A stretch of DNA of 64,000 nt, taken from Hoylesella nanceiensis DSM 19126 = JCM 15639 (lineage in GTDB: Bacteria; Bacteroidota; Bacteroidia; Bacteroidales; Bacteroidaceae). Where the stretch lies: NCBI RefSeq assembly GCF_000379965.1, contig NZ_KB904327.1, positions 124,001 through 188,000 of the forward strand, given 5' to 3'. Positions 3,537-64,000 of this stretch are shown here, piece by piece. The notes below the pieces were generated by a model. That model saw only the letters and a list, made by a program, of their open reading frames with translations. It was not told the DNA's origin and did no database searches. Made by a program: the position numbers and the translations under genes. Position 1 is the first letter of the stretch. Every line of letters starts with the position of its first letter.

Positions 3537-5738
3537 GTGATACAATCGAAAACATTAAATGAGGTAAAACACCTTATTATTAAAGATAAAAATATTAGTA
3601 AAGCAATTGCTCTTCTTCATCAATATCTTTCAAAGAATGAGTGTTTCTCTCAGTTGGAGAGAGTCGAAGAAATAAAGAAAGAATATAATTTGATGAAGGA
3701 ATACATGCTAAAAGGCTATGTAGACCAGCAACGCAACCAACTTTATTCCTCTCTTTTACAAAGGTTATACGTCATCACCATGAATGCATCTATTGATGTA
3801 TTCAAAGATAAAAATCTAACTCCTGTAACTAAAGAACCCTCTTTAGGTGAGGATATTTTTACTTTTGAAGAGATAGAAAAGACGCTAACACAGTTTGTAC
3901 AAGATGTTACAATGCTGTCGTTAGAGTTAGATTCGAACAAAGAAACCAAACAAAAGCAAATTTATTCAGACCATTATAACTATCTATCACGATTGTTTAA
4001 TGTCATTGTTGTATCTCATCAATGGAGCGAATCTTTTGCCCTTTCATTCCAAAGTCTATTGCTTTCTCCGACGATAGAGACATCTGATGTTCAGCAAATC
4101 GTATCTGCAATAACGTTAGGAGCTATGCAAGTGTTTGATATCAATAAGTTCAAAACGCTTGTAACGCTATATTTAAATGCAGAAGATGAAGAGGTTAAGC
4201 AACGTGCATTGGTTGGATTTGCTTTTACTTTGCCATCGTTAGAAGACGAATTATACCCCGAAGTGAAAGAGATTGTAGATGAGGTAATTGCTAAAAAAGG
4301 TGCTAAGGAACTGTATGAATTGCAACTTCAAGTGTTCTATTGTAAGAATACTGATGCAGATAATGAAGAACTTCAGAAGAATATTCTACCCAATATCATG
4401 GAAAATGAGCATTTTTCTTTGAACTCTTCAGATATCATCGACTTGGAAAAAGATAACCTTAAAGACATCTTGGGGCAACATTCTAGCGAACAAGACATTG
4501 AAAAGTTAGAAGCAAGTATAGATAAAATGAAAGATATGCAGAAGGCAGGTGCCGATATTTATTTTGGTGGTTTTGCTCGAATGAAAAGCTTTTCTTTCTT
4601 TTATAGATTAAGTAATTGGTTCACTCCCTTTAGCTTTAATCACCCAGAGGTAGCGTCTTTGGTAGATAAAATAGGAGAGAGTAAGTTTATAAAAGAATTG
4701 ATGAACAACGGACCTTTCTGCAATTCGGATAAATATTCCTTTGCTTTGTCTTTGTCGCAGGTCATCACTTCCTTACCAGCAAACATGAAAGAGATGTTTG
4801 AAAACAGCGGAATGTTGCCCGATAATATGATTGTAGGTGATTTAAATTCACCTTCTTACATTCGTCGAACCTATCTGCAAGATTTGTATAGGTTTTTCCG
4901 TTTGTCTACATTTAAAAATGTATTCTTCAACCCCTTCAATTATAGTCGCACAGAAAAGCAATCCTTTTTCTTTGTAAACTCATTGCTTTTAGACACTAAT
5001 TTGAATGCTTTTGCACCTGAATTAGTGCGCTTTTTGATGAAGAAGAAAATGTATAACGAAATACCCGACATTCTTTCTGCTTATGAAAACGGAACGGATA
5101 GGGGATTAAAGCACCTTGCAGCGTTGTATTATTTGCAAAAAGGAAGTTATATTTCGGCCAAAGTTTACTACGAAATGCTCTATACTGAAGATACAAACGA
5201 TCTAAAAGCGTTGCAAGGATTAGCACAAAGTGAACTGTATCTTGAACACCATAAAAAGGCGATTGAATATTATTCGATATTACTTCAACATGCTCCCGAA
5301 AAGTTCTCTTATCAGTTTAATAAGGCAATAGCTCTTCTTAATGAAGGCGAACTCAATGAAGGTATGAATATACTCTTTAAGTTAGATCTTGAAAAAGCTG
5401 ATAACTTGGATATTAAGCGTGCAATTGCTTGGGGTTATTTGTTGCAGAAACGTGCAGAAGATTCGATCAAAATGTATCGTAGTTTGTTTGAATCTAACAA
5501 CCAAATGGTTTCGGATTATTTAAACATGTCTTATGCTTTATGGGCAAATAGCGAAGTGGAAGAATCGGTGAAGATGTTTAAGCAATATATCGAATCGTTG
5601 AAGTTGGAAAAAGAAGAGGCTCGCATAAAATTGCAAAAAGATTTTGCTAACGATAGAATATTCTTTAAAACCTATCTTTATAGCGACGCCGAATGTAATA
5701 TTATGCTTGATTTAATCTTCGAAGAATCTGCAAATTAA
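3537..5738 (+). CDS. Large TPR-repeat protein of unknown function
   Basis: The protein has 733 residues, no evident signal peptide and no membrane segment. The C-terminal part, about residues 515-710, shows tetratricopeptide-like helical repeats (runs such as ALYYLQKGSYISAKVYYEML and KAIEYYSILLQHAPE), which usually mediate protein-protein contacts. The N-terminal 500 residues are helical-looking and unrecognised. The start is a GTG at 3537; no in-frame ATG fits closer to the upstream gene. It ends 28 bases before a terminator hairpin. It probably forms a two-gene unit with the preceding lipoprotein gene. Confidence 0.8.
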   Translation: MIQSKTLNEVKHLIIKDKNISKAIALLHQYLSKNECFSQLERVEEIKKEYNLMKEYMLKGYVDQQRNQLYSSLLQRLYVITMNASIDVFKDKNLTPVTKEPSLGEDIFTFEEIEKTLTQFVQDVTMLSLELDSNKETKQKQIYSDHYNYLSRLFNVIVVSHQWSESFALSFQSLLLSPTIETSDVQQIVSAITLGAMQVFDINKFKTLVTLYLNAEDEEVKQRALVGFAFTLPSLEDELYPEVKEIVDEVIAKKGAKELYELQLQVFYCKNTDADNEELQKNILPNIMENEHFSLNSSDIIDLEKDNLKDILGQHSSEQDIEKLEASIDKMKDMQKAGADIYFGGFARMKSFSFFYRLSNWFTPFSFNHPEVASLVDKIGESKFIKELMNNGPFCNSDKYSFALSLSQVITSLPANMKEMFENSGMLPDNMIVGDLNSPSYIRRTYLQDLYRFFRLSTFKNVFFNPFNYSRTEKQSFFFVNSLLLDTNLNAFAPELVRFLMKKKMYNEIPDILSAYENGTDRGLKHLAALYYLQKGSYISAKVYYEMLYTEDTNDLKALQGLAQSELYLEHHKKAIEYYSILLQHAPEKFSYQFNKAIALLNEGELNEGMNILFKLDLEKADNLDIKRAIAWGYLLQKRAEDSIKMYRSLFESNNQMVSDYLNMSYALWANSEVEESVKMFKQYIESLKLEKEEARIKLQKDFANDRIFFKTYLYSDAECNIMLDLIFEESAN

Positions 5739-21533: not shown

Positions 21534-21561
21534 GGTTGTAATTGCATTCTTTTTGCTATAT

Positions 21562-21620
21562 AAAAGCAATGTTTTTGCAAGGTAAGAGTAGTGCTTTTAC
21601 CACTTAATTGTAATGCTTTT
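21562..21620 (+). repeat. 22-bp-phased GCTTTT repeat, copy at 21562
   Basis: AAAAGC at 21562 is followed by AAT and then GTTTTT at 21571, GCTTTT at 21593 and GCTTTT at 21615, each 22 bases apart. The start is therefore a palindromic AAAAGCAATG(C)TTTT centre, from which phased units run to the right. Confidence 0.72.
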
Positions 21621-21686
21621 GCAATCAATATGTAAAGAACAATAAAAACGAGGAGATAGTTCTCAAATATTATTAGGATTTCAATT

Positions 21687-34503: not shown

Positions 34504-34553
34504 TGTTTTGCCATGCAATAGCATTGCTTTTACAACCTAATATCATTGCTTTT
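34504..34553 (+). repeat. 22-bp-phased GCTTTT repeat, copy at 34504
   Basis: TGTTTT at 34504, GCTTTT at 34526 and GCTTTT at 34548 are exactly 22 bases apart. CATT precedes the last two hexamers, and CCTAATAT fills the spacer as in the copy at 12758. Confidence 0.7.
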
Positions 34554-52270: not shown

Positions 52271-52297
52271 TATTGTAGTGTTATCAGATTGTAAAAT

Positions 52298-52334
52298 AAA
52301 AGCATTCTTCTTATATGGTAAAAGCATTGCTTTT
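52298..52334 (+). repeat. 22-bp-phased AAAAGC/GCTTTT repeat, copy at 52298
   Basis: AAAAGC at 52298 and 52320 are 22 bases apart. The second is half of a perfect palindrome AAAAGCATTGCTTTT at 52320-52334. This is the same element as at 21562 read from the other side of its palindromic centre. Confidence 0.7.
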
Positions 52335-52500
52335 GAGGTGTAACTAATCAAGGAAAATGAAGAAATATCGAAAGATATGCAAACTAATTGGTAATGAGGT
52401 AGAAACGAGGCAATTTGCATAAAACTGCTCTATTTGTAAAAGGCAGGAAAGTGCGGATTTAAGCAGAAGTTCAGTTACTAAATCATTACCAAGATTTGAA

Positions 52501-52631: not shown

Positions 52632-53861
52632 ATGAAAACAGAAAAGATGAAGGTGTTGCTCTACCTCAAAAAGAGCGGAAAGGATAAGCAGGGTAAAGCT
52701 CCCATTATGGGACGTATCACACTTGGAAGGAGTATAGTACAGTTTAGTTGCAAGCTATCTTGTGATATAGATTTGTGGAGTCCTCGTGAAAGTAGAATGA
52801 GGGGCAAGAGCCGTGAGGCGGTGGAAGTGAACGGAAAGCTGGATAGTTTAGTACTTTCCATTCAGTCCGCTTATCAAACATTGCTGTCCAAAGGACAGGC
52901 ATTTACTGCCACGGACATCAAGGAGCAGTTTCAAGGGAGCGTACAATCTCGGTGTATGCTTATAGAACGCCTTGATAGGCTTATCAGGGAGAAAGAAGAA
53001 CACGTTGGAATAGATATTAAGAAAGATACGCTATCTAATTATCACTCTACACGAAGCAATCTTTGCACATTCATCGAAGAGAAATATAAGGTAGAGGATT
53101 TAGCTTTCTCACAACTATCTGAAAACTTTATTTATGATTTTAGAGATTTTTTCTTGGGGACATTAGGTTTTCAAGAGAGCAGTTTCTATGGTGCAGCTTC
53201 CCAAATAAAAACCGTATGTAGGTTGGCATACCGTGAGGGATTGGCTGACACCTTGTTGTTTGCTAATGCAAAAATAGTAAGAGGAGATAAGAAGCTACCC
53301 AAAGCTCTTGATAGGTGTTCGCTTGACAAACTAATGAAGATACAGTTTGAAGAGTTAGAGGAGGAAATGGAAACCGCAAGGGACTTGTTTGTCTTTGCTT
53401 GCCATACGGGTGCAGCCTATTGCGATTTGATGGAGTTAAGCAGATTGCATCTTGTCCGTGATGATGAGGGAAGTCTTTGGCTGAAGTTCAACAGGCAGAA
53501 GACAGGCGTACTTTGCCGTATCAAGTTGTTGCCCGAAGCCATCAGGATAATAGAGAAGTACAAGAGCGATGAAAGGGAAAGCCTATTGCCACAGATGAAA
53601 TATGCCACCTATCAATCGTATCTTAAAGCATTGCGCCTAAGAATCGGCATAGCCTTTCCCTTTACCACGCATACGGCAAGACATACCTTTGCCACGCTCA
53701 TCACACTTGAGCAGGGAGTGCCGATAGAAACGGTGAGCAAGATGTTGGGGCATAGCAACGTGAGTATGACCGAACGGTACGCAAAGGTTACACCACAGAA
53801 ACTGTTTTTGGAGTTTGAGCGTTTCCTTTCTTTCACGGAGGATATGCAGATGAGTATTTAG
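52632..53861 (+). CDS. Tyrosine recombinase (Bacteroidetes IntDOT-like), first
   Basis: The 409-residue protein has an N-terminal arm-binding and SAM-like core-binding region (about 1-220) and a C-terminal catalytic domain. Visible catalytic residues are His347-x-x-Arg350 in HTARHTF, His374 in GHSN and the nucleophile Tyr383. The first arginine of the usual set is replaced: TGAAYCDLMEL in place of TGLRxxE, as in IntDOT of Bacteroides conjugative elements. It probably excises and inserts the element it lies in. A second, different recombinase follows 25 bases later. Confidence 0.9.
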   Translation: MKTEKMKVLLYLKKSGKDKQGKAPIMGRITLGRSIVQFSCKLSCDIDLWSPRESRMRGKSREAVEVNGKLDSLVLSIQSAYQTLLSKGQAFTATDIKEQFQGSVQSRCMLIERLDRLIREKEEHVGIDIKKDTLSNYHSTRSNLCTFIEEKYKVEDLAFSQLSENFIYDFRDFFLGTLGFQESSFYGAASQIKTVCRLAYREGLADTLLFANAKIVRGDKKLPKALDRCSLDKLMKIQFEELEEEMETARDLFVFACHTGAAYCDLMELSRLHLVRDDEGSLWLKFNRQKTGVLCRIKLLPEAIRIIEKYKSDERESLLPQMKYATYQSYLKALRLRIGIAFPFTTHTARHTFATLITLEQGVPIETVSKMLGHSNVSMTERYAKVTPQKLFLEFERFLSFTEDMQMSI

Positions 53862-53886: not shown

Positions 53887-55206
53887 ATGATTAGAAGTAC
53901 ATTCAAGACACTGTTTTATATCAACAGACAAAAGACCAAAGCAAATGGTCTGACCTCCATACTCTGCCGTATCACGATAGATGGCAAGAACTCTGTCATT
54001 ACTACAAACGAAGAATGTAAGCCTGCGGAGTGGAATGCCAAGCAAGGAATAACTACAGATAAGAAAACAAACCTTCGCCTGCAAGCATTCAGAGAACAAG
54101 TAGAAAAGACCTATCAGGAACTGCTCCTAAAAGACGGAGTGGTAAGTGCTGAACTGCTTAAAAACAGATTGCAAGGCATAGCAACTTCTCCCACCACTTT
54201 GTTGGAGCTAAGCAATACAGAACTACAATCGGTAAAGGAAGGTGTGGGCAAGTCTAAGGCAGAAGGTACATACACTAACCTTTGCTATGCTAACAGGATG
54301 CTGTGCGAGTTTATAAAGGACTTAGGTAGTACGGATATAGAAATCCGAAGTATAACGGAGGAACTGTTTGAAGAATACCGCTTCTTTCTTAAAAAGAAAG
54401 GGTTGAAAGGTTCTTCTATCAACAATTATCTTTGTTGGCTGAGCCGTTTGATGTTCCGTGCGGTAAGCCAGCGCATCATTCGTTATAATCCATTTGAGCA
54501 TGCAGAATATGAAAAGGTGGAAAAGGCTATCCGCTTTCTTAGTAAGAGTGATGTGAAAAAACTGATGGCTATGAAGATATGTGATAGTGATGCCGAGCTT
54601 GCCAGACAGATGTTTATCTTCTCCTGCTTCACAGGTTTAGCCATTACGGATATGGAACACTTGACGTTTGGGCATATCAAGAGCGCAGCGGACGGACAGA
54701 TGTATATAAGAAAGGAACGTCAGAAAACAAAAGTAGAATTTATAGTGCCGTTACATCCCATAGCCAAGACGATTATTGAGCAGCAAAGGCAACTAAAAGC
54801 GGTGAAAGAAGAAGGCAATAACACGGATATGGATAATCGCCTTATCTTTCAGCCCTGTTGCAGCAGAAGTGTGTTAGCAGCGAAGCTAAGCATCGTAGGC
54901 AAGGCTTGTGGTATCAAGCAACGCCTGTCCTATCACATGGGAAGACATACCTTCGGAACGATGTGTCTAAGTGCAGGTATTCCCATAGAAAGCATCGCCA
55001 AGATGATGGGACACACATCAATTGCAAGTACACAGATTTATGCACAGGTAACGGACTGCAAGATTTCCGAGGACATGGACAAACTCATCGCCAAACATCA
55101 GGAAAAGAACAAAGAAAACGATACAATGGAAACGGAAGCGATTACCATAGGGGCAATGACGATTGTCAACGCAAGCAGAAACAAAAGCATGGAGGAAACG
55201 GCATGA
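53887..55206 (+). CDS. Tyrosine recombinase (Bacteroidetes IntDOT-like), second
   Basis: The 439-residue protein is only distantly similar to the first recombinase. It starts with IRSTFKTLFYINRQKTKANG, an arm-binding domain, and the catalytic set is His349-x-x-Arg352 in HMGRHTF, His376 in GHTS and Tyr385. The first arginine is again missing (CFTGLAITDMEHL). About 50 extra residues follow the tyrosine. Its stop overlaps the ATG of the small RhuM-like gene. Tandem recombinases like this occur at the ends of Bacteroidetes mobile elements. Confidence 0.9.
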   Translation: MIRSTFKTLFYINRQKTKANGLTSILCRITIDGKNSVITTNEECKPAEWNAKQGITTDKKTNLRLQAFREQVEKTYQELLLKDGVVSAELLKNRLQGIATSPTTLLELSNTELQSVKEGVGKSKAEGTYTNLCYANRMLCEFIKDLGSTDIEIRSITEELFEEYRFFLKKKGLKGSSINNYLCWLSRLMFRAVSQRIIRYNPFEHAEYEKVEKAIRFLSKSDVKKLMAMKICDSDAELARQMFIFSCFTGLAITDMEHLTFGHIKSAADGQMYIRKERQKTKVEFIVPLHPIAKTIIEQQRQLKAVKEEGNNTDMDNRLIFQPCCSRSVLAAKLSIVGKACGIKQRLSYHMGRHTFGTMCLSAGIPIESIAKMMGHTSIASTQIYAQVTDCKISEDMDKLIAKHQEKNKENDTMETEAITIGAMTIVNASRNKSMEETA

Positions 55207-55628
55207 ATACGGAAGATGGAATAAAGACCAAGGCTGAAATCCGTCTGGACACGGGGCGCAGCTACTTCGAGTGGGGAAATGGTATGCAGGTTATCCGCAG
55301 GGGAAAAGGCGAAGTAGCCATGACCGAGGGCGAGCTTGCAAGGTTCTTCGGAGTTACATGGAGAAAAGTCAATGGCAGACTTCGGACGATAACCGAAGAA
55401 TCCGTCCTGCATCCAGAAGAAAGGGGCGCAGACGAAAGGAAAATAGTCACGGATAAGGAGGTAAGGGGCTACGCACCGCTCTACCCATTACCTACAATTA
55501 TCGCCCTTTCCTTCTTGCTTGACAGCGTAGAAGTCCATCTGTTCAGAAAGCATGTGTGCAGTGAGTTGATGCGTCCAAGGAACTCTGTCATTCCTATCAT
55601 CATATATGACAGGGGTGTCAATAGCTGA
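55203..55628 (+). CDS. Small RhuM-like DNA-binding protein, copy 1
   Basis: The 141-residue protein starts at an ATG that overlaps the recombinase stop, preceded by a clear GGAGG ribosome site. Residues 39-62 (MTEGELARFFGVTWRKVNGRLRTI) look like a helix-turn-helix. Residues of about 92-120 (PLYPLPTIIALSFLLDSVEVHLFRK) resemble the YNLDxIIAVGYRVNSxxxxxFR block of RhuM-type virulence proteins. A close paralogue follows at 55864. A role as a regulator of recombination is possible, but the family is not characterised. Confidence 0.65.
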   Translation: MNTEDGIKTKAEIRLDTGRSYFEWGNGMQVIRRGKGEVAMTEGELARFFGVTWRKVNGRLRTITEESVLHPEERGADERKIVTDKEVRGYAPLYPLPTIIALSFLLDSVEVHLFRKHVCSELMRPRNSVIPIIIYDRGVNS

Positions 55629-55637
55629 ATATGTACC

Positions 55638-55763
55638 AATCCTTTTTCTTTCACTGTTATCTTACTACATCACTACAATACAAGATAATACGGTGAAAGA
55701 GAAAGGATTACGTTGTAGTTGGTAGATGACTATATGTGCACCTACGGTATGACTACATACTAC
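55638..55763 (+). repeat. Hairpin plus ACTAC motif array, copy 1
   Basis: AATCCTTTTTCTTTCAC (55638-55654) pairs with 55693-55709 with one wobble. Inside lie two ACTAC (55664, 55672). Beyond are GTAGT at 55715 and two more ACTAC at 55752 and 55759. The same layout follows the second RhuM-like gene. The paired, evenly spaced motifs look like protein-binding sites. It sits between the two paralogous genes. Confidence 0.6.
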
Positions 55764-55863
55764 CGATCCATGAACGGAAAGGATATGTTTTTTAGCCGTG
55801 GAATGCGGTCAGAGAGGTTTATGAACCTTCAGATATTTCAATCTATAAAATGGAGGAAACGGC

Positions 55864-56286
55864 ATGAATACAAAAAACAAATCACAGATAGAAGTAAAAT
55901 CCATTCAATACAAAGAGCGCAGTTATTATGAATGGGGCAGCAATATGCAAATAGTCCGCAAAGGAAATGGAGAAATTGCCATGACTGAGGGCGAACTTGC
56001 GAGGTTCTTCGGTGTAACGTGGAGGAAACTCAATAATAGACTTCAAGAGATAATTCACAATCCCAACCTGTACCCTGATGAAAGGAGTGCAGGTGAGAGG
56101 GTAATAGTCAGAGATAACGAGTTGGTAGGCTATGTACCGCTTTACCCCCTCCCAATCATCATTGCCTTGTCCTTTCAGTTGGATAGCACAGAAGCCCATT
56201 TCTTCAGAAAGTATATCATCCATGAGCTACAACGACCGTCCGCAACCATAACACCGATATTCCTTTTTGGAAGTACACACCATTAA
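55864..56286 (+). CDS. Small RhuM-like DNA-binding protein, copy 2
   Basis: The 140-residue protein is clearly a paralogue of copy 1: MTEGELARFFGVTWRK is identical in both, and YVPLYPLPIIIALSFQLDS is nearly so. The N-terminus is shifted by a few residues and the C-terminus differs. The 22 bases around its start (55850-55871) are identical to those at copy 1 (55189-55210), including the GGAGG, 661 bases apart. This shows a tandem duplication that began within the last codons of the recombinase gene. Confidence 0.65.
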   Translation: MNTKNKSQIEVKSIQYKERSYYEWGSNMQIVRKGNGEIAMTEGELARFFGVTWRKLNNRLQEIIHNPNLYPDERSAGERVIVRDNELVGYVPLYPLPIIIALSFQLDSTEAHFFRKYIIHELQRPSATITPIFLFGSTHH

Positions 56287-56295
56287 ATTATCTCT

Positions 56296-56420
56296 ATCCT
56301 TTTCTTTCACCGATATTATCCTACTACATAACTACAAAAGGGATAAAACAGTGAAAGAAAAAGGATTATGTTGTATTTGGTAGTTGTTTATATGTACTAC
56401 TACGATATGACTACATACTA
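56296..56420 (+). repeat. Hairpin plus ACTAC motif array, copy 2
   Basis: ATCCTTTTCTTTCAC (56296-56310) pairs with GTGAAAGAAAAAGGAT (56351-56366). ACTAC motifs lie inside and beyond it, and a GTAGT-containing stretch follows. It is alignable with copy 1 along its whole length with small indels, to at least 56470. Confidence 0.6.
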
Positions 56421-56818
56421 CCTATCCATGAACGGAAAGGAAACGCTTTCTTTAATAGTGGAATAAAGTCAAAACTATGGTATACCCCTCGGGCATGAAG
56501 AGAAAGAAACTGAACTTATCAAGTTTGCCGATAACTTTGAAGTACGGTGGAATGCAAGGCAAAATAGCTGAGTCCACTTTTAAAAGTCAAAGAACTCGAT
56601 TTTTAAGTTCGCAACCCACCGATTATCAGTAGGAGATTTTTGGAGAAATCATTTTTTTAAGTGGACGCATAACCTTGATAATAGTGAACGAATCAGAGAA
56701 ATTTATTTAGATAATAGGCATGCCATATTTGTTTTGAAGTTGGGAGTATCTTCTTTACTGGGCAGATGACGTTTAAGTAATAAAAATATTTATTAGGAAT
56801 TATTCGTGCGTCATAGCG

Positions 56819-57258: not shown

Positions 57259-60200
57259 ATGTTTGAAAAAATCATCAATTTTTCCATACAGAACAAATTG
57301 GTGATTGGTATCATGACATTGCTTCTTATAGTATGGGGAGCCGTGTCACTGGGCCAATTGCCATTTGATTCCACACCTGATATTACCAACAATCAGGTAC
57401 AAGTCATCACTCAAGCTCCCACGCTTGGCGCAGAGGAGGTTGAGCAGTACGTAACCACGCCACTTGAAATGGCTTTTGCCAACATTCCCGACATTGTGGA
57501 GCGTAGAAGTATCAGTCGCAGCGGATTGAGCGTTGTGACGCTCGTATTTCGCGACAATGTGGACATTTACTGGGCGCGTCAGCAGGTGAGCCAACAGCTG
57601 AAGGAGGCAGAGGAGGAGATTCCACGCAGAGCAGGCAAGGTGAGCTTGGCTCCTATCTCCACTGGACTCGGCGAGATTTACCAATACACCATTCATCCAG
57701 AGAAAGGATATGAGAAAAAATTCTCTCTATCAGACATCCGTACCGTACAAGACTGGATTGTACGAAAGCAGTTTGCTGGTACCGAAGGTGTGGCCGAGGT
57801 GAACGGATGGGGCGGCTATGTAAAGCAATATGAAGTAGCCATTAATCCTGACCGTCTTGCCTCATTCGGTCTCACGGTGGTCGATCTTTATAAAGCCATA
57901 GAAGGTAACAATGAGAATACGGGTGGCAGTTATATAGAACAAGGCAACAATCAGTATTTTATCCGTGGTATCGGACTGGCGCGCACGTTGGATGATATCC
58001 GGCAAATTCCCGTAAAGACTGTCAATAGTATTCCTGTGCTTGTGAGTGATGTAGCAGAAGTGCGATATGGTTCGGCCATGCGTTATGGAGCTGTAACACG
58101 CAATGGTGAAGGCGAAGTGGTGAGTGGTATCACACTGATGCTCAAGGGAGAGAACTTCCAACAAGTCATCAAAAACGTAAAGGAACGCATGAACCAAGTG
58201 CAGAAGAGCTTGCCCAAAGGCTTGGTCATTGAACCGTTCATAGACCGCACGCAGTTGGTAGACCGCGTGACGTTCACTATCACCGAGAACTTGGTACTGG
58301 GTTTACTTATTGTGATATTTGTACTCATGCTATTTTTGGGCAATATCCGAGCAGGATTAGTGGCAGCATCGGTCATTCCGCTTGCCATGCTCTTTGCTTT
58401 CGGTATGATGAAGGCTTTCGGTGTGGGAGGCAACTTGATGAGTCTTGGTGCGCTCGACTTTGGAATTATTGTCGATGGTGCAGTCATCATCGTGGAGTGT
58501 ATCACCACCTATATAGTCTCTTATGGCAAGAGTATCAATAAAAGTGTACTTTCGCAGGACGATATGGATCATGTGGTAAGCATGGGTGCCAACAAAATAC
58601 GTAAGAGTGCAGCATTTGGTGAAATTATTATCATGACAGTCTACGTGCCCCTCTTCACATTGGTAGGCATCGAAGGAAAAATGTTCAGACCGATGGCAAT
58701 GACAGTATTCTTTGCCGTTCTCGGAGCGTTTATTCTATCGCTCACGTATGTTCCTGCTGCCAGTGCATTGTTTCTATCACGAAAAACGGAGCATGGAAAG
58801 AATTTCTCTGATCGTATGATGCATCGTATCAGTGAGGTTTATTTGCCATTACTACGCGTCAGTCTTAAGCACAGCAAAGTCATCGTGGCAACAGGTATTG
58901 CCCTACTCGCCGTAGCCTTATTTATCTTCTTGCGTATGGGCGGCGAGTTTATTCCCAATTTAGAAGAAGGTGACCTCTGCGCCGAAGTAAGCATGAAACA
59001 GGGCACGAGTCTGTCGAGGATGATAGCCAAAACCACAGAGGCAGAGAAAATACTGAAGAAGCGTTTCCCCGAGGTGAAACAGGTGGTGACGCGCATCGGT
59101 AGTTCAGAAATTCCCACCGACCCCATGCCTATGGAGCGTGGCGACATGATGATACAACTCAAGCCCAAGAGTGAATGGACGAGTGCTAAAACGCAGGCAG
59201 AACTTTCTGAAAAGATGGAAGAGGCAATGAGTGAGGTAGAGGGATTGCGCGCGGAAATGTCGCAACCCATACAGATGCGTACCAACGAGCTCATTACGGG
59301 TGTAAAGCAAGATGTTGCCATCAACATCTATGGCAACAACATCGACTCGCTGGCAAACATTGCTAAGCGTGTGGCAGAGAAAATAGAAAATGTGGAGGGT
59401 GTCGGGACGCCTATCATGGAGCGTGTATCGGGACTGCCACAGTTACAAGTCATCTACGATCGTAGTCGCCTATCGGCTTATGGAATATCCATCAAGGAAG
59501 CGAATAGCATACTGGAATCAGCTTTCGCTGGAATAACGGCAGGCAGTATTTTCGAGGAAGACAAGAAGTTCGACATCGTGTTGCGCTTGGACGAGAAGAT
59601 GCGCAACAAGATTGAAACCTTACAGAACCTACTACTCACTGTGCCAAGCGGAGGAACCGTACCTTTGTCGCAAGTGGCAGAGATAAAATATGTAAGTACA
59701 CCATCGCAGATTACCCACGACGAGGGGCAACGACGCATCTACGTGGGCTTCAACGTGCGAGGCAGAGATGTGGAGACAACCATTGCCGATATAGAGAAAA
59801 AGTTGAACATTGAATTGCAGTTGCCAACAGGCTATCATTATACCTACGGCGGACAGTTTAAGAATCTCAAGGAGGCAAAGGCACGTCTTTTGGTTGCTGC
59901 ACCAGCTGCATTAATCATCATTCTCTTCCTCCTATTCTTCACACTGCGCAGCATGCGTGAGATATTGATTGTGTTCACCGAAATTCCGCTTGCAGCCATC
60001 GGTGGTATCCTCGCCCTATGGTTGCGCGGCATACCTTTCAGCATCTCTGCTGGTGTTGGCTTTATTGCCCTGTTCGGCGTTGTGGTGCTTAACGGTATTG
60101 TGCTCATCAACCAGCTCGACGAGTTCAAGCGTAAGGGTATCACCGACATCAATCGCTGTATCATCAACGGCTGTATGGAACGTCTGCGCCCCGTGCTGAT

Positions 60201-60372
60201 GACAGCACTCGTGGCTTCGCTCGGCTTCCTACCCATGGCCATCTCGACAGGCGACGGTGCTGAGGTGCAGCGACCTCTTGCCACGGTAGTCATCGGTGGT
60301 CTGCTCATTGCCACCATTCTCACGCTTGTGGTGTTGCCCTCTATGTACAAAATCTTTTCAAAGACAAAATAG
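57259..60372 (+). CDS. czcA: CzcA/CusA-family heavy-metal efflux RND pump
   Basis: This inner-membrane proton-driven pump exports divalent or monovalent metal ions through CzcB and CzcC. The 1037-residue protein has 12 membrane segments in two halves (first at about 14-30, then about 337-530 and 860-1030). The motif LGALDFGIIVDGAVI in the fourth helix has Asp400 and Asp406 at the positions needed for proton coupling in CzcA. The DFD-type motif favours the Zn/Co/Cd group; metal choice is not certain. It is noticeably GC-richer than the genes before 52000. It is followed two bases later by czcC. Confidence 0.94.
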   Translation: MFEKIINFSIQNKLVIGIMTLLLIVWGAVSLGQLPFDSTPDITNNQVQVITQAPTLGAEEVEQYVTTPLEMAFANIPDIVERRSISRSGLSVVTLVFRDNVDIYWARQQVSQQLKEAEEEIPRRAGKVSLAPISTGLGEIYQYTIHPEKGYEKKFSLSDIRTVQDWIVRKQFAGTEGVAEVNGWGGYVKQYEVAINPDRLASFGLTVVDLYKAIEGNNENTGGSYIEQGNNQYFIRGIGLARTLDDIRQIPVKTVNSIPVLVSDVAEVRYGSAMRYGAVTRNGEGEVVSGITLMLKGENFQQVIKNVKERMNQVQKSLPKGLVIEPFIDRTQLVDRVTFTITENLVLGLLIVIFVLMLFLGNIRAGLVAASVIPLAMLFAFGMMKAFGVGGNLMSLGALDFGIIVDGAVIIVECITTYIVSYGKSINKSVLSQDDMDHVVSMGANKIRKSAAFGEIIIMTVYVPLFTLVGIEGKMFRPMAMTVFFAVLGAFILSLTYVPAASALFLSRKTEHGKNFSDRMMHRISEVYLPLLRVSLKHSKVIVATGIALLAVALFIFLRMGGEFIPNLEEGDLCAEVSMKQGTSLSRMIAKTTEAEKILKKRFPEVKQVVTRIGSSEIPTDPMPMERGDMMIQLKPKSEWTSAKTQAELSEKMEEAMSEVEGLRAEMSQPIQMRTNELITGVKQDVAINIYGNNIDSLANIAKRVAEKIENVEGVGTPIMERVSGLPQLQVIYDRSRLSAYGISIKEANSILESAFAGITAGSIFEEDKKFDIVLRLDEKMRNKIETLQNLLLTVPSGGTVPLSQVAEIKYVSTPSQITHDEGQRRIYVGFNVRGRDVETTIADIEKKLNIELQLPTGYHYTYGGQFKNLKEAKARLLVAAPAALIIILFLLFFTLRSMREILIVFTEIPLAAIGGILALWLRGIPFSISAGVGFIALFGVVVLNGIVLINQLDEFKRKGITDINRCIINGCMERLRPVLMTALVASLGFLPMAISTGDGAEVQRPLATVVIGGLLIATILTLVVLPSMYKIFSKTK

Positions 60373-60374
60373 AT

Positions 60375-61598
60375 ATGAAGAAACAATATATCATTTTCAG
60401 CCTATTCCTCTTTCTTCCCATCTTAGTATCGGCACAAAGCCGACAGATGACGTTGCAAGAGGTGTTGGCAATGGCTGCCGAGCGTAGCCTAACATTGCAG
60501 AACTCACGTATGGAGGTGGATAAGACCCGTATCCTTCAAGGTACTGCTTTTCATCTGGATGCCACATCCGTGTCGCTCTCTCAGGACCCCACCAGTGGCG
60601 GAAGTCCCGACAATGCCATCACGGTGAGTCAGTCGTTTGCTTTACCCAGTGTTTATTCTGCCAGACGCTCATTGCTCAAGTCCGAAACCAGCGCTGCCCA
60701 AAGTCGATTGGCGGTGAGCGAGAATGAGCTGCGACGAGAGGTGAGCTTGGCTTTCTACGACTTGCTCTACGCACAGGACGTGTTACACATTTATGCCCGT
60801 CAAGACAGTATCTATAAAAATTTCAACCGTGTGGCAGAGGCTAAACTCGGAGCTGGAGAGACTGGACGATTAGAGCAGATAAATGCAATCCGACTGAAAC
60901 AGGAGAACGATATCAAAAATGACATTGCGCAGCGCGACTTTCTCACTGCCCAATTACAGTTGATGAAGTGGCTCAACAGCGATACGCTGGTAATACCTCT
61001 TGCCACAGCGACTAATGAACTCATATTTGCCGACCATTCCATTGCAGACGTTCCCCTCCTCGCCTTAGCGAAGAGTCAAGAAGAAGTTGCCAACCGACAA
61101 CTGAAATTGGAGAAACGCAACGGACTGCCCACATTCTCTGTAGGAGCCAGCGTGCAGACCGTCATCAAGGGATTCAATCCCTACAACATTGACCGCAGCG
61201 CGTATGGTGGTGGCAACTTCATGGGCTTCTCCGTGGGAGTGAACATCCCCTTAGCATTCGGTGCACAAAAGGCGCGGGTGAAGGCGACTCGCAAGGAAGT
61301 GGAGATGGCACAACTCAACGTGCGCAATCAGGAGTACGTGCTCCGCAAAAGCTACGATGCAGCCTATAACAACTATGTGTCGGCATACAAAGCCTACAAC
61401 TATTATCAAAAAATAGGAGTGCCCCAAGCTCGCGAGATGGAACGAATCTCTAAAGTGAGTTATGAATATGGACAGATAGGTTATGTGGAGTTAATGCAAA
61501 ACCTACAGAGTGCATTGGAGGTTTGGAAAGACTTTGCTGATGCTACTCGCCAATATTATAAAGCTATTGTTGAACTGAATTATCTTCAAGGAAAATGA
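60375..61598 (+). CDS. czcC: CzcC-like outer-membrane efflux protein
   Basis: The 407-residue protein is a TolC-family channel for the RND pump. It has a signal peptide ending in LVSAQ, two halves of long helices (such as SENELRREVSLAFYDLLYAQD), and beta-strand hairpins for the outer-membrane barrel. It lies two bases after czcA and overlaps czcB by four bases, so the three are made together. Confidence 0.9.
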   Translation: MKKQYIIFSLFLFLPILVSAQSRQMTLQEVLAMAAERSLTLQNSRMEVDKTRILQGTAFHLDATSVSLSQDPTSGGSPDNAITVSQSFALPSVYSARRSLLKSETSAAQSRLAVSENELRREVSLAFYDLLYAQDVLHIYARQDSIYKNFNRVAEAKLGAGETGRLEQINAIRLKQENDIKNDIAQRDFLTAQLQLMKWLNSDTLVIPLATATNELIFADHSIADVPLLALAKSQEEVANRQLKLEKRNGLPTFSVGASVQTVIKGFNPYNIDRSAYGGGNFMGFSVGVNIPLAFGAQKARVKATRKEVEMAQLNVRNQEYVLRKSYDAAYNNYVSAYKAYNYYQKIGVPQAREMERISKVSYEYGQIGYVELMQNLQSALEVWKDFADATRQYYKAIVELNYLQGK

Positions 61599-62494
61599 GA
61601 AAAATAGGATTTTATCTACTGATACTGCTTGCCATGGTTATGGTGATAAGCTGTGGTAACGATAAGAAAAGTGACAAGGAAGAGAATGCTGCTTCCGAGA
61701 AAGTGGAAACAGAAGAAGGTGAAGAGGAGGCTGATGCTGATCCAGCACCCGACTTAAGTAAAACTGTTAATGTTGTGCGTGTGACTGGAACATTGGCACT
61801 TGATCCACAAAACAAAGCAGAGGTTTCTCCCATTGCAAGTGGGGTGGTGCGGCGCATTACAACTAGGGAAGGTATTAGAGTGCGCCGCGGTCAAGTGGTG
61901 GCTTATATAGAAAATACACAAATAGTCGAACTGCAACGCCAGTATCTCACGGCTGTAAATGAGCTTTCTGCAGCCAAAACAGAACTTGCCCGACAGCAGG
62001 CGCTGATGAAACAAGATGCAGGTGTGCTGAAAACTTTGCAACAGGCTGAGTCGACCTATGCTATTGCTAATGCGCAAGTAGTAGGTATTGGACGTCAGTT
62101 GAGTCAGCTCGGCGTGAATCCGCCTTCAATATCAGCAGGCAAGCTCACCACTCTCATTCCTGTCACATCTCCCATCAGTGGTATTGTTGGGAAGATAAAA
62201 ATCAGTATGGGCAGCTTCGTGGACATCTCCACTTCGCTCATGACGGTGGTCAACAACGTAAACCTGCATTGCGACCTGAAAATGTTTGAGAAAGATTTGC
62301 CCAAGGTGCGCATCGGTCAGATGGTGAAGCTGACGCTCACCAATGCCCCCGAGGTGACCTTCTGCGCCAAGATCTACGACATAAACTCCGTCTTCGACAA
62401 CGATTCCAAGTCGGTCACGGTGCATGCCCGTATCATTGACCACCCCGCTACCAAGCTATTGCCCGATATGTTTATCAATGGTGTGATAGAATGA
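61595..62494 (+). CDS. czcB: CzcB-like periplasmic adaptor, short C-terminus
   Basis: The 299-residue lipoprotein (lipobox ISC, Cys20) links CzcA to CzcC. After an acidic linker (about 28-52), it has a lipoyl domain (VSPIASGVVRRITTREG and RVRRGQVVAYI), a helical hairpin (about 108-170), the second lipoyl half and a beta-barrel (MTVVNNVNLHCDLKMFEKD to the end). It stops at LPDMFINGVIE, where relatives usually continue for about 80 residues as the membrane-proximal domain. The stop overlaps the next ATG. Confidence 0.85.
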   Translation: MRKIGFYLLILLAMVMVISCGNDKKSDKEENAASEKVETEEGEEEADADPAPDLSKTVNVVRVTGTLALDPQNKAEVSPIASGVVRRITTREGIRVRRGQVVAYIENTQIVELQRQYLTAVNELSAAKTELARQQALMKQDAGVLKTLQQAESTYAIANAQVVGIGRQLSQLGVNPPSISAGKLTTLIPVTSPISGIVGKIKISMGSFVDISTSLMTVVNNVNLHCDLKMFEKDLPKVRIGQMVKLTLTNAPEVTFCAKIYDINSVFDNDSKSVTVHARIIDHPATKLLPDMFINGVIE

Positions 62495-62676: not shown

Positions 62677-62721
62677 ATCAGATGTAGGGAATCTTTGCAA
62701 AAAAGTAGAAGTTGTGAAATT

Positions 62722-64000
62722 ATGGAAAAGGAAAATAGAAACAAACTTATAAGGATAATCTCTGCTAGTGTACTCTTAGCAGGATCGGTATTGGTAGAAC
62801 GGACAATGAACCTGCTGATATGGCAACTATTGCTTGTCTATCTTGTGCCTTACTTGGTTGTGGGCTACGACGTGCTAACGGAAGCTGCCGAGGACATTGC
62901 ACATGGCAAGGGCATGGACGAAGACTTCCTCATGGCTATAGCTACATTAGGTGCCCTTTGCATCGGTTTTATGCCGGGGGCAGAACCACAGTTCACTGAA
63001 GCGGTGTTTGTGATGCTCTTCTTTCAAGTGGGCGAACTCTTTGAAAGTTTTGCCGAGGGTAGAAGTCGTAAGAGTATCTCTCAGCTGATGGACATCCGTC
63101 CCGACATCGCCCATGTAAAGCGTGGTGAAGAGCTGGTGGACGTGAATCCTGAAGAGGTGAAGGTGGGCGACATCGTTGTAATTCGACCAGGAGAGAAAGT
63201 ACCGATGGACGGTATCGTTATCGATGGTGCATCAAGTCTGAATACAGTTGCATTGACAGGCGAGAGCGTACCGCGTACCATTCGTCCTGCCGATGAAATC
63301 ATGTCAGGATGTATAAATCTCAATGGTGTGGTGACAGCAAAAGTAACCAAGGCATTTGGCGAGAGCACGGCGGCAAAGGTGCTCAACCTCGTGGAAAATG
63401 CCACAGAAAATAAGTCGAAGAACGAAAACTTCATCACCAAGTTTGCCAAAATATACACGCCCATAGTAGTTGTACTTGCCTTGTTGGTGGCAGTTATACC
63501 ACCGTTGCTCGTCAATGAGCAGTTGTGGAGCGTGTGGATCTATCGCGCTCTCACATTCCTTGTAGTGTCATGCCCTTGTGCTCTCGTTATCTCCGTGCCT
63601 CTCACTTTCTTTGGAGGCATCGGTGGAGCATCGCGAAAGGGTGTGCTCATTAAGGGCTCTAACTATATGGAGACATTGGCAAAGGTGCGCACGATTGCCT
63701 TTGACAAGACTGGCACCATGACACACGGTGTGTTTGACGTTACTGCTATTCATCCCGAAAATATTGCCCCCAATGAATTATTGCACTTAGCTGCTCATGC
63801 GGAACGATATTCCACGCACCCCATTGCCCTCAGCATTCGCAAGGCTTTTCCTGACAAAAACGACGGCTGCGATGTAAAGGACATAGTGGAGACGGCTGGA
63901 CAGGGCGTGATGGCTCGTATAAATGGCAAGTCGGTAAGTGTGGGTAATACGAATTTGATGAAGAGCGTGGGCGCAAAGTGGCAACCCTGTGAAAAAGTGG
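62722..64000 (+). CDS. Zinc/cadmium-type P1B ATPase, N-terminal part (cut by window end)
   Basis: The frame is open from the ATG at 62722 to the window end, with 426 residues visible. It starts directly with membrane helices, without an N-terminal metal-binding domain. Motifs in order are TGES at 179-182 (actuator), CPC at 284-286 in the metal-transporting helix and the phosphorylated DKTGT at 328-332, then AERYSTHPIA of the nucleotide domain. These fit the Zn/Cd/Pb-exporting ZntA/CadA group. It exports metal from the cytosol to the periplasm, where CzcCBA could take it on. It follows 45 bases after the 61-residue ORF. Confidence 0.93.
   Translation, partial: MEKENRNKLIRIISASVLLAGSVLVERTMNLLIWQLLLVYLVPYLVVGYDVLTEAAEDIAHGKGMDEDFLMAIATLGALCIGFMPGAEPQFTEAVFVMLFFQVGELFESFAEGRSRKSISQLMDIRPDIAHVKRGEELVDVNPEEVKVGDIVVIRPGEKVPMDGIVIDGASSLNTVALTGESVPRTIRPADEIMSGCINLNGVVTAKVTKAFGESTAAKVLNLVENATENKSKNENFITKFAKIYTPIVVVLALLVAVIPPLLVNEQLWSVWIYRALTFLVVSCPCALVISVPLTFFGGIGGASRKGVLIKGSNYMETLAKVRTIAFDKTGTMTHGVFDVTAIHPENIAPNELLHLAAHAERYSTHPIALSIRKAFPDKNDGCDVKDIVETAGQGVMARINGKSVSVGNTNLMKSVGAKWQPCEKV

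Follow-up and report, generated by a model that had tools for sequence, protein, structure and literature searches.

The 64,000-nucleotide stretch of Hoylesella nanceiensis DSM 19126 = JCM 15639 DNA analyzed here (contig NZ_KB904327.1, positions 124,001 to 188,000; hereafter, the window) covers the left portion of an integrative and mobilizable element (IME). The element is ~18.9 kb long, with the remainder lying beyond the window end; coordinates above 64000 continue the window numbering along the same genome. The element runs from integrases 1 and 2 through two repeat units, transporter cargo, an HTH_17 gene, a VapE-like rep, a Toprim/CHC2 primase gene, a NikA-like gene and a MobA-type relaxase gene to its right end. 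Each of the two ~660-bp units consists of a small gene, a hairpin, and ACTAC motifs. Our analyses suggest, with a probability that we put at roughly 0.6, that the ACTAC arrays are iteron sites through which the replication module of this element works, whether as origins, in copy control or in priming, and that one such site has moved behind the integrase operon, where it is present twice in this element. The features that bear most directly on this reading are the following.

52632..53861, + strand: tyrosine integrase 1 (409 aa; PF00589 at 1.4e-15, PF13102, PF17293)
53887..55206, + strand: tyrosine integrase 2 (int2; 439 aa; PF00589 at 9.8e-19, PF13102, PF17293)
55203..55628, + strand: small protein gene, copy 1 (141 aa), with an ATGA overlap with the int2 stop
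55638..55709, no strand assigned: hairpin 1, with ACTACATCACTAC in the loop (DNA fold z −7.34)
55713..55763, no strand assigned: remainder of array 1, TGTAGT followed by ACTAC at 55752 and 55759
55864..56286, + strand: small protein gene, copy 2 (140 aa)
about 56296..56366, no strand assigned: hairpin 2, with ACTACATAACTAC in the loop (DNA fold z −5.54)
56373..56421, no strand assigned: remainder of array 2, GTAGT at 56380 and ACTAC at 56396, 56399, 56410 and 56417
66119-67402, outside the window: VapE-like rep
67389-67476, outside the window: putative iterons in the rep–primase gap
67615-68601, outside the window: primase gene (PF13155 at 1e-14; CHC2 and Toprim domains)

Two units behind the integrase operon

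An earlier note on this DNA reported that a unit of about 661 bases is present twice, and our comparisons bear this out. Repeats recur between the units at spacings of 661, 658 and 656 bases and include 300 nt at 70% identity (55249-55548 / 55910-56209) and 108 nt at 85% identity (55684-55791 / 56342-56449). The 22 bases at the two gene starts (55189-55210 / 55850-55871) are indeed identical, as the note had said; in copy 1, this 22-mer is the overlap of the int2 stop with the small-gene start (ATGA). Identity between the two small proteins is 54-60% and varies with the region compared.

Both small genes are followed by a hairpin and ACTAC motifs, again as reported. The note gives the stems 15-17 bp, but they exceed this, with 26 bp paired in hairpin 1. 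Folded as DNA, hairpins 1 and 2 gave z-scores of −7.3 and −5.5, none of 200 shuffles folded as well, and the loop of each presents an unpaired ACTAC-N3-ACTAC pair. There are five ACTAC/GTAGT sites in unit 1 (55664-55763) and seven in unit 2 (56323-56421). The reported start-to-start spacings of 7 and 8 bases do occur, but spacings of 3 and 11 occur as well. When we scanned 81 kb (the window plus the next 17 kb) for groups of four motifs within 110 bp, such groups were found in three places: unit 1, unit 2, and the rep–primase gap outside the window, which thus holds a third dense ACTAC/GTAGT cluster in the same element. The overlapping four-motif groups numbered nine, compared to a mean of 0.5 and a maximum of four in 60 mononucleotide shuffles.

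Association of the array with rep and primase

The hairpin-loop pattern, searched with at most one mismatch in 399 genomes, matched 40 places in 22 genomes, compared to 12 for the reversed control. Thirty of these places were fetched (L120-L149; such labels denote fetched loci), and in 13 of the 30, no small protein and none of these integrases was detected within 1.5 kb (E<=1e-3). In seven of those 13 (L120, L122, L123, L126, L127, L140, L142), the hairpin lies between rep and primase genes. L128 carries a similar site in the rep–primase gap, and L124, L129, L130 and L143, which carry no such site, are probably chance matches. Six class II IMEs (L150, L151, L153, L154, L156, L157) encode two integrases 49-59% identical to those of the window and have a hairpin/ACTAC site between rep and primase; tblastn at E<=1e-4 detected no small protein in the 13.8-19.5 kb fetched for them. 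The rep and primase frames of L154 are broken, and the L152 stretch contains rep and primase and no integrase. The rep (56-60%) and primase (36-39%) of the window element recur in L155, L204 and L205, whose integrases are dissimilar (22-34% over matched parts). No small protein was found in these three loci, yet 9-10 ACTAC/GTAGT motifs stand behind rep. A repeat array lies directly behind rep in 13 of 13 gaps examined, eight of which were found through the motif.

We also searched with rep, rather than the motif, as bait. This first search matched 76 of 251 genomes, and 46 loci were examined (30 as delivered by the search and 16 picked from a longer list). All 13 loci with a rep of at least 59% identity have four to nine motifs behind rep, where 0.7-0.8 are expected, and all 31 loci with a rep of at most 37% identity have zero to two (L182 among them, over just 79 nt). 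The stretch at L190 (rep 58%) contains many Ns that leave its motifs unreadable, and L188 (rep 51%) has a single ACTAC and TTACTGC/GCAGTAA instead. A second search, which started from the 51% rep and had no shuffle control, covered 30 loci of the 40 matches listed, some of them common to the first search. All 30 have a motif within 360 nt behind rep: ACTAC in 26 (4-11 copies), ACTGC in three (L210-L212; 6-7 copies), and both in L221. Behind reps with 91-100% identity to that of the ACTGC-type L206 stand ACTGC sites in some loci (L210-L212) and ACTAC sites in others (L213 and L236, with reps 91-92% identical), as if the sites had changed jointly. Because the rep-bait searches find the motif behind rep, even where the integrases are dissimilar and no small protein was found, we assign the array to rep/primase. 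At the level of sequence, the comparisons made here demonstrate the element itself, an association of the array with rep, arrays without the small protein, small genes without the array, and the divergence of the two units.

In the mechanism that we favor, the last gene of the integrase operon would encode a small accessory protein that may bind DNA. The stretch immediately after this gene would act in cis for the replication module; it comprises a long hairpin, whose loop presents ACTAC, and further ACTAC/GTAGT iterons alongside. The proposed reader of the iterons in the excised circle is the VapE-like Rep, perhaps together with the Toprim primase. The main site would be that between rep and primase, where, in the window element, four motifs are followed by 41 nt containing 10 G/C (a bare count; the element is 44.5% GC) and then by a single motif. 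The site behind the integrase operon would be a displaced second site, serving as a second origin, a copy-control (handcuffing) locus or a single-strand priming site. The whole unit of small gene and site is present twice in this element, as two diverged versions placed adjacent to each other. Plasmid R6K, in which distant origins are joined by looping, offers a parallel for such a displaced site. More speculatively, and at rather long odds, the origin may be split: Rep iterons behind rep and a hairpin-bearing second origin or priming site behind the integrase operon would physically couple integrase expression with replication or second-strand synthesis, and the doubling of the unit would tune copy control or strand priming.

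Several observations weigh against the assignment of the arrays to replication. The small gene and the array travel together in 16 of 17 close loci of the survey described below, and L155 shares its relaxase (53%), in addition to rep and primase, with the window element. In L213, the motif is a different one although rep has diverged by just 8%, a difficulty for the idea that the identity of rep is all that determines the motif; either a few rep residues change specificity, or another factor reads the motif. The comparisons cannot separate Rep from primase as the reader, and many of the loci are close relatives, such that the counts are not independent. Finally, unlike the sites behind the small genes, the window rep–primase gap folds with no significant hairpin (z −0.3, −1.5).

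This last point bears also on a related and less probable alternative, that the array is a single-strand initiation site: after single-strand transfer, the loop-exposed ACTAC would start the second strand via the Toprim primase of the element. The strong DNA hairpin with its unpaired loop pair is consistent with such a role, as are the CHC2 and Toprim domains of the encoded primase, the partial retention of the stem in class II despite a differing 5′ arm, and the mostly opposite orientation of the motif in the class I gap. However, the window gap lacks a significant hairpin, and the class II site of L123 folds at just z −2.8.

The small protein and the history of its doubling

Neither copy of the small protein had a Pfam match at E<=1 or a meaningful NCBIfam match. 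The label "RhuM-like" in the earlier note is therefore a faint one: a single remote relative (L109) matched PF13310 (RhuM) at 1.7e-5 over 34 residues, below the curated cut-off (24.7 bits against 33.7), whereas the window proteins did not match. A PDB sequence profile of the small protein gave a best E of 0.063, to winged-helix-type regulators, which is not significant; PHROGs gave a weak match for one of 23 members, and the viral contigs searched contained no relative of copy 2. A conserved segment, MTE-EL--FF-VTW, could be a helix-turn-helix.

A profile search with the small protein matched 109 of 399 genomes at E<=1e-3, most of them remotely, and 30 fetched loci (L090-L119) constituted our survey. 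In 24 of the 30, a same-strand recombinase frame ends within 120 nt upstream of the small gene, and ATGA is found at the small-gene start in 15 of 15 loci picked; the placement of the gene with recombinases, made in the note, is thus upheld. The six survey misses comprise L090, which is the window's copy 2 with copy 1 intervening; L100, at a contig start; L106, truncated; L113, in which a recombinase is present but the frames overlap; and L111 and L119, in which no small frame was picked. In the exceptional L064, the small gene begins about 65 nt behind int2. Prevotella nigrescens NZ_CP072340.1 provides a counter-example to tandem-integrase coupling: here, the small gene (annotated "hypothetical protein") has just one integrase for a neighbor, encoded on the opposite strand, and stands ahead of ars cargo, VapE, toprim and relaxase genes. 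Judged from the survey neighborhoods, the small protein seems to be a regular companion of tyrosine recombinases in these bacteria and may have an accessory role in recombination.

The note further proposed that the product of the small gene binds the adjacent ACTAC array, acting as a directionality factor, repressor or element regulator. We consider this improbable. Consistent with the proposal, gene and array are both kept in both units, the array is kept behind the gene in 16 of the 17 close survey loci (L090-L105 of L090-L106), and the conserved segment is a candidate helix-turn-helix. However, when we ran the check named in the note, relatives were not always beside the array: in all 10 loci where a recombinase immediately precedes a remote homologue (L107-L110, L112, L114-L118), the 260 nt downstream contain zero or one ACTAC/GTAGT. 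Homologues without such an array are an outcome that the note itself had named as refuting. L113, with its overlapping frames, has two. Conversely, class II IMEs, L155, L204 and L205 carry the array between rep and primase or behind rep with no small protein found, and the third cluster of the window's own element lies beside rep. Because remote homologues lack the array and the array occurs in IMEs without the small protein, binding of the array by this protein is not supported.

The two copies belong to separate clades in our trees: copy 1 clusters with L063/L091, L019 and L092/L093/L207, and copy 2 with L009-L011 and L209, while the window int2 groups with L010 and L209, which have copy-2-type units, and with L019 (the int2 tree lacks the L009, L011 and L063 frames; support values are not given). 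The copy 1 protein is 96% identical to that of L207, an element whose int2 is just 71% identical to the window's. Between copies 1 and 2, the synonymous divergence (dS) is 2.4, near saturation, with a nonsynonymous divergence (dN) of 0.34 and a ratio of nonsynonymous to synonymous differences (pN/pS) of 0.38; pN/pS was 0.29 for copy 2 versus L009, 0.38 for copy 1 versus L063, and 0.72, on few changes, for copy 1 versus the nearly identical L093. The separate clades, the L207 int2 mismatch and the near-saturated dS speak against a fresh tandem duplication. Instead, two long-separated versions of the unit stand side by side, probably brought together by recombination at the conserved int2/small-gene junction. 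Two-unit elements were seen in the window, L019 and L063; the second copy of L019 is frameshifted and partly copy-1-like, and that of L063 is incomplete and followed by a transposase-like frame. A second, decayed integrase/small-gene/hairpin module with broken genes is present at L021 3695-7117 (G000:C1, same genome).

Other readings of the array, element ends and related systems

That the array is an accessory site of the recombination complex, or an operator of another element protein, seems to us very unlikely. One array does adjoin the integrase operon, and excision of NBU1 needs its own primase and cis sites, a point on which we found no paper. Against such roles, the array is kept with dissimilar integrases, and it is GGTAAC/GTTACC motifs, not ACTAC, that recur at both element ends (by eye). 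A promoter-operator role is further argued against because, of the 11 loci among L009-L020 with DNA there, 10 (all except L019) have the next listed frame behind the small gene in opposite orientation to it; in the window, the two share a strand. An arm-type integrase site was rejected on the same retention with dissimilar integrases. An origin of transfer (oriT) was rejected since relaxases differ among carriers (class II, L204, L205), L155 excepted; an intrinsic terminator, since no T run follows the near-family hairpin (by eye); an integron attC-like cassette of gene and hairpin units, since the hairpin occurs beside rep without any gene unit; an RNA element, on no Rfam match at E<=1; and a loop-to-TGTAGT pseudoknot, since L014-type sites lack TGTAGT. 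Several remote homologues have terminator-like hairpins behind the gene (by eye).

We file the element with the MTnPi1/2/3 kind of IME. In the excerpts available, these Prevotella intermedia mobilizable transposons are described as having two tandem tyrosine integrases, a relaxase, a primase and exchangeable cargo, with excision demonstrated (Naito et al., PMC4755523), and an 11-bp att, TTACNNNNNAA / TTGCNNNNNAA, in which MTnPi3 has pyrimidines for TT (PMC5704250). The window element has the integrases, relaxase, primase, exchangeable cargo and 11-bp att (reversed) in common with them; the likeness is by description, and those excerpts make no mention of the small gene, the hairpin/ACTAC site, rep iterons or 22-bp array targets. 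The remaining features of the element are as follows.

52284..52339, no strand assigned: 22-bp-periodic intergenic repeat array (best lag 22) with palindrome AAAAGCATTGCTTTT, in which the element sits
52333..52343, + strand: attL core TTGAGGTGTAA, in agreement with the published MTnPi att after reverse complement
52340, + strand: left end of the element, beginning GTAACTAATC; between-locus homology begins about here
57259..62494, + strand: cargo, RND transporter, TolC-like and HlyD-like genes (named by eye)
62695..64000, + strand: cargo, P-type-ATPase-like gene continuing past the window end (named by eye)
65089-65385, − strand, outside the window: HTH_17 gene
69467-69898, outside the window: NikA-like gene
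69882-70946, outside the window: MobA-type relaxase gene (PF03432 at 1.7e-25)
71178-71188, outside the window: attR TTGGTTGGTAA, with the same kind of flanking repeat beside the right end

Both ends match the reversed att pattern, TTNNNNNG[TC]AA, and in Prevotella loci the shared homology begins at or near G[TC]AACTAAT (window 52340). Among 19 left ends picked by pattern with enough flank (the window, L009-L012, L014, L015, L017, L018, L020, L021, L063-L065, L067-L070, L074), TT is present in 10, two pyrimidines in 14 and neither in five, with the G[TC]AA part met by construction. These ends adjoin short intergenic arrays with a best period of 22 at 17 of 19 and 23 at two of 19, compared to 227 of 3843 random 100-mers with a best lag of 22 or 23. 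The sequence of the flanking array varies between species. The palindrome AAAAGCATTNCTTTT has 400 near-matches in the genome (at most one mismatch, both strands, 214+186; reversed control, 4, 0+4), often 22 bp apart; those in the window lie at 4954-4990, 21561-21624, 34517-34553 and 52298-52334. By eye, the linker of the flanking array resembles the att core. These fast-changing 22-bp arrays look like the insertion target of the elements, a target described for MTnPi, in the excerpt, just as AT-rich (PMC5704250). At L011 1-320, the DNA left of the element resembles, by eye, a right end belonging to another copy; a 22-bp array of four units separates the two, and two elements may lie there in tandem. 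In L135, the last of the 13 hairpin-pattern loci without small protein and integrases nearby, the left end is fused straight to the hairpin, with the integrases and small gene missing.

Iterons directly behind rep have precedents. The pri-rep-ori of phage-inducible chromosomal islands, as excerpted, has iterons immediately 3′ of the replication gene in two sets that flank an AT-rich stretch (PMC6092414). The window element resembles it in its putative iterons behind rep, but is an IME with a relaxase, has its primase downstream of rep, and, behind the integrase operon and kilobases from rep, has an additional putative iteron site with a hairpin. SGI1 is likewise an IME with an HTH_17 gene, a rep and an iteron oriV directly behind rep, and replicates after excision (PMC7433901); its Rep is of another type, and the excerpt describes no displaced second site. 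In the open-licence literature, we found no publication on iterons or VapE-type replication of these Bacteroides-type mobilizable elements.

Our analysis separates two neighbors, a widely distributed integrase partner protein and a putative replication site. If the replication reading is true, a widespread family of Bacteroidales mobilizable elements would replicate via its own VapE-Rep/Toprim-primase module at short iterons recognizable by eye, and the hairpin would be a ready target for studying how such elements copy themselves before or after transfer.

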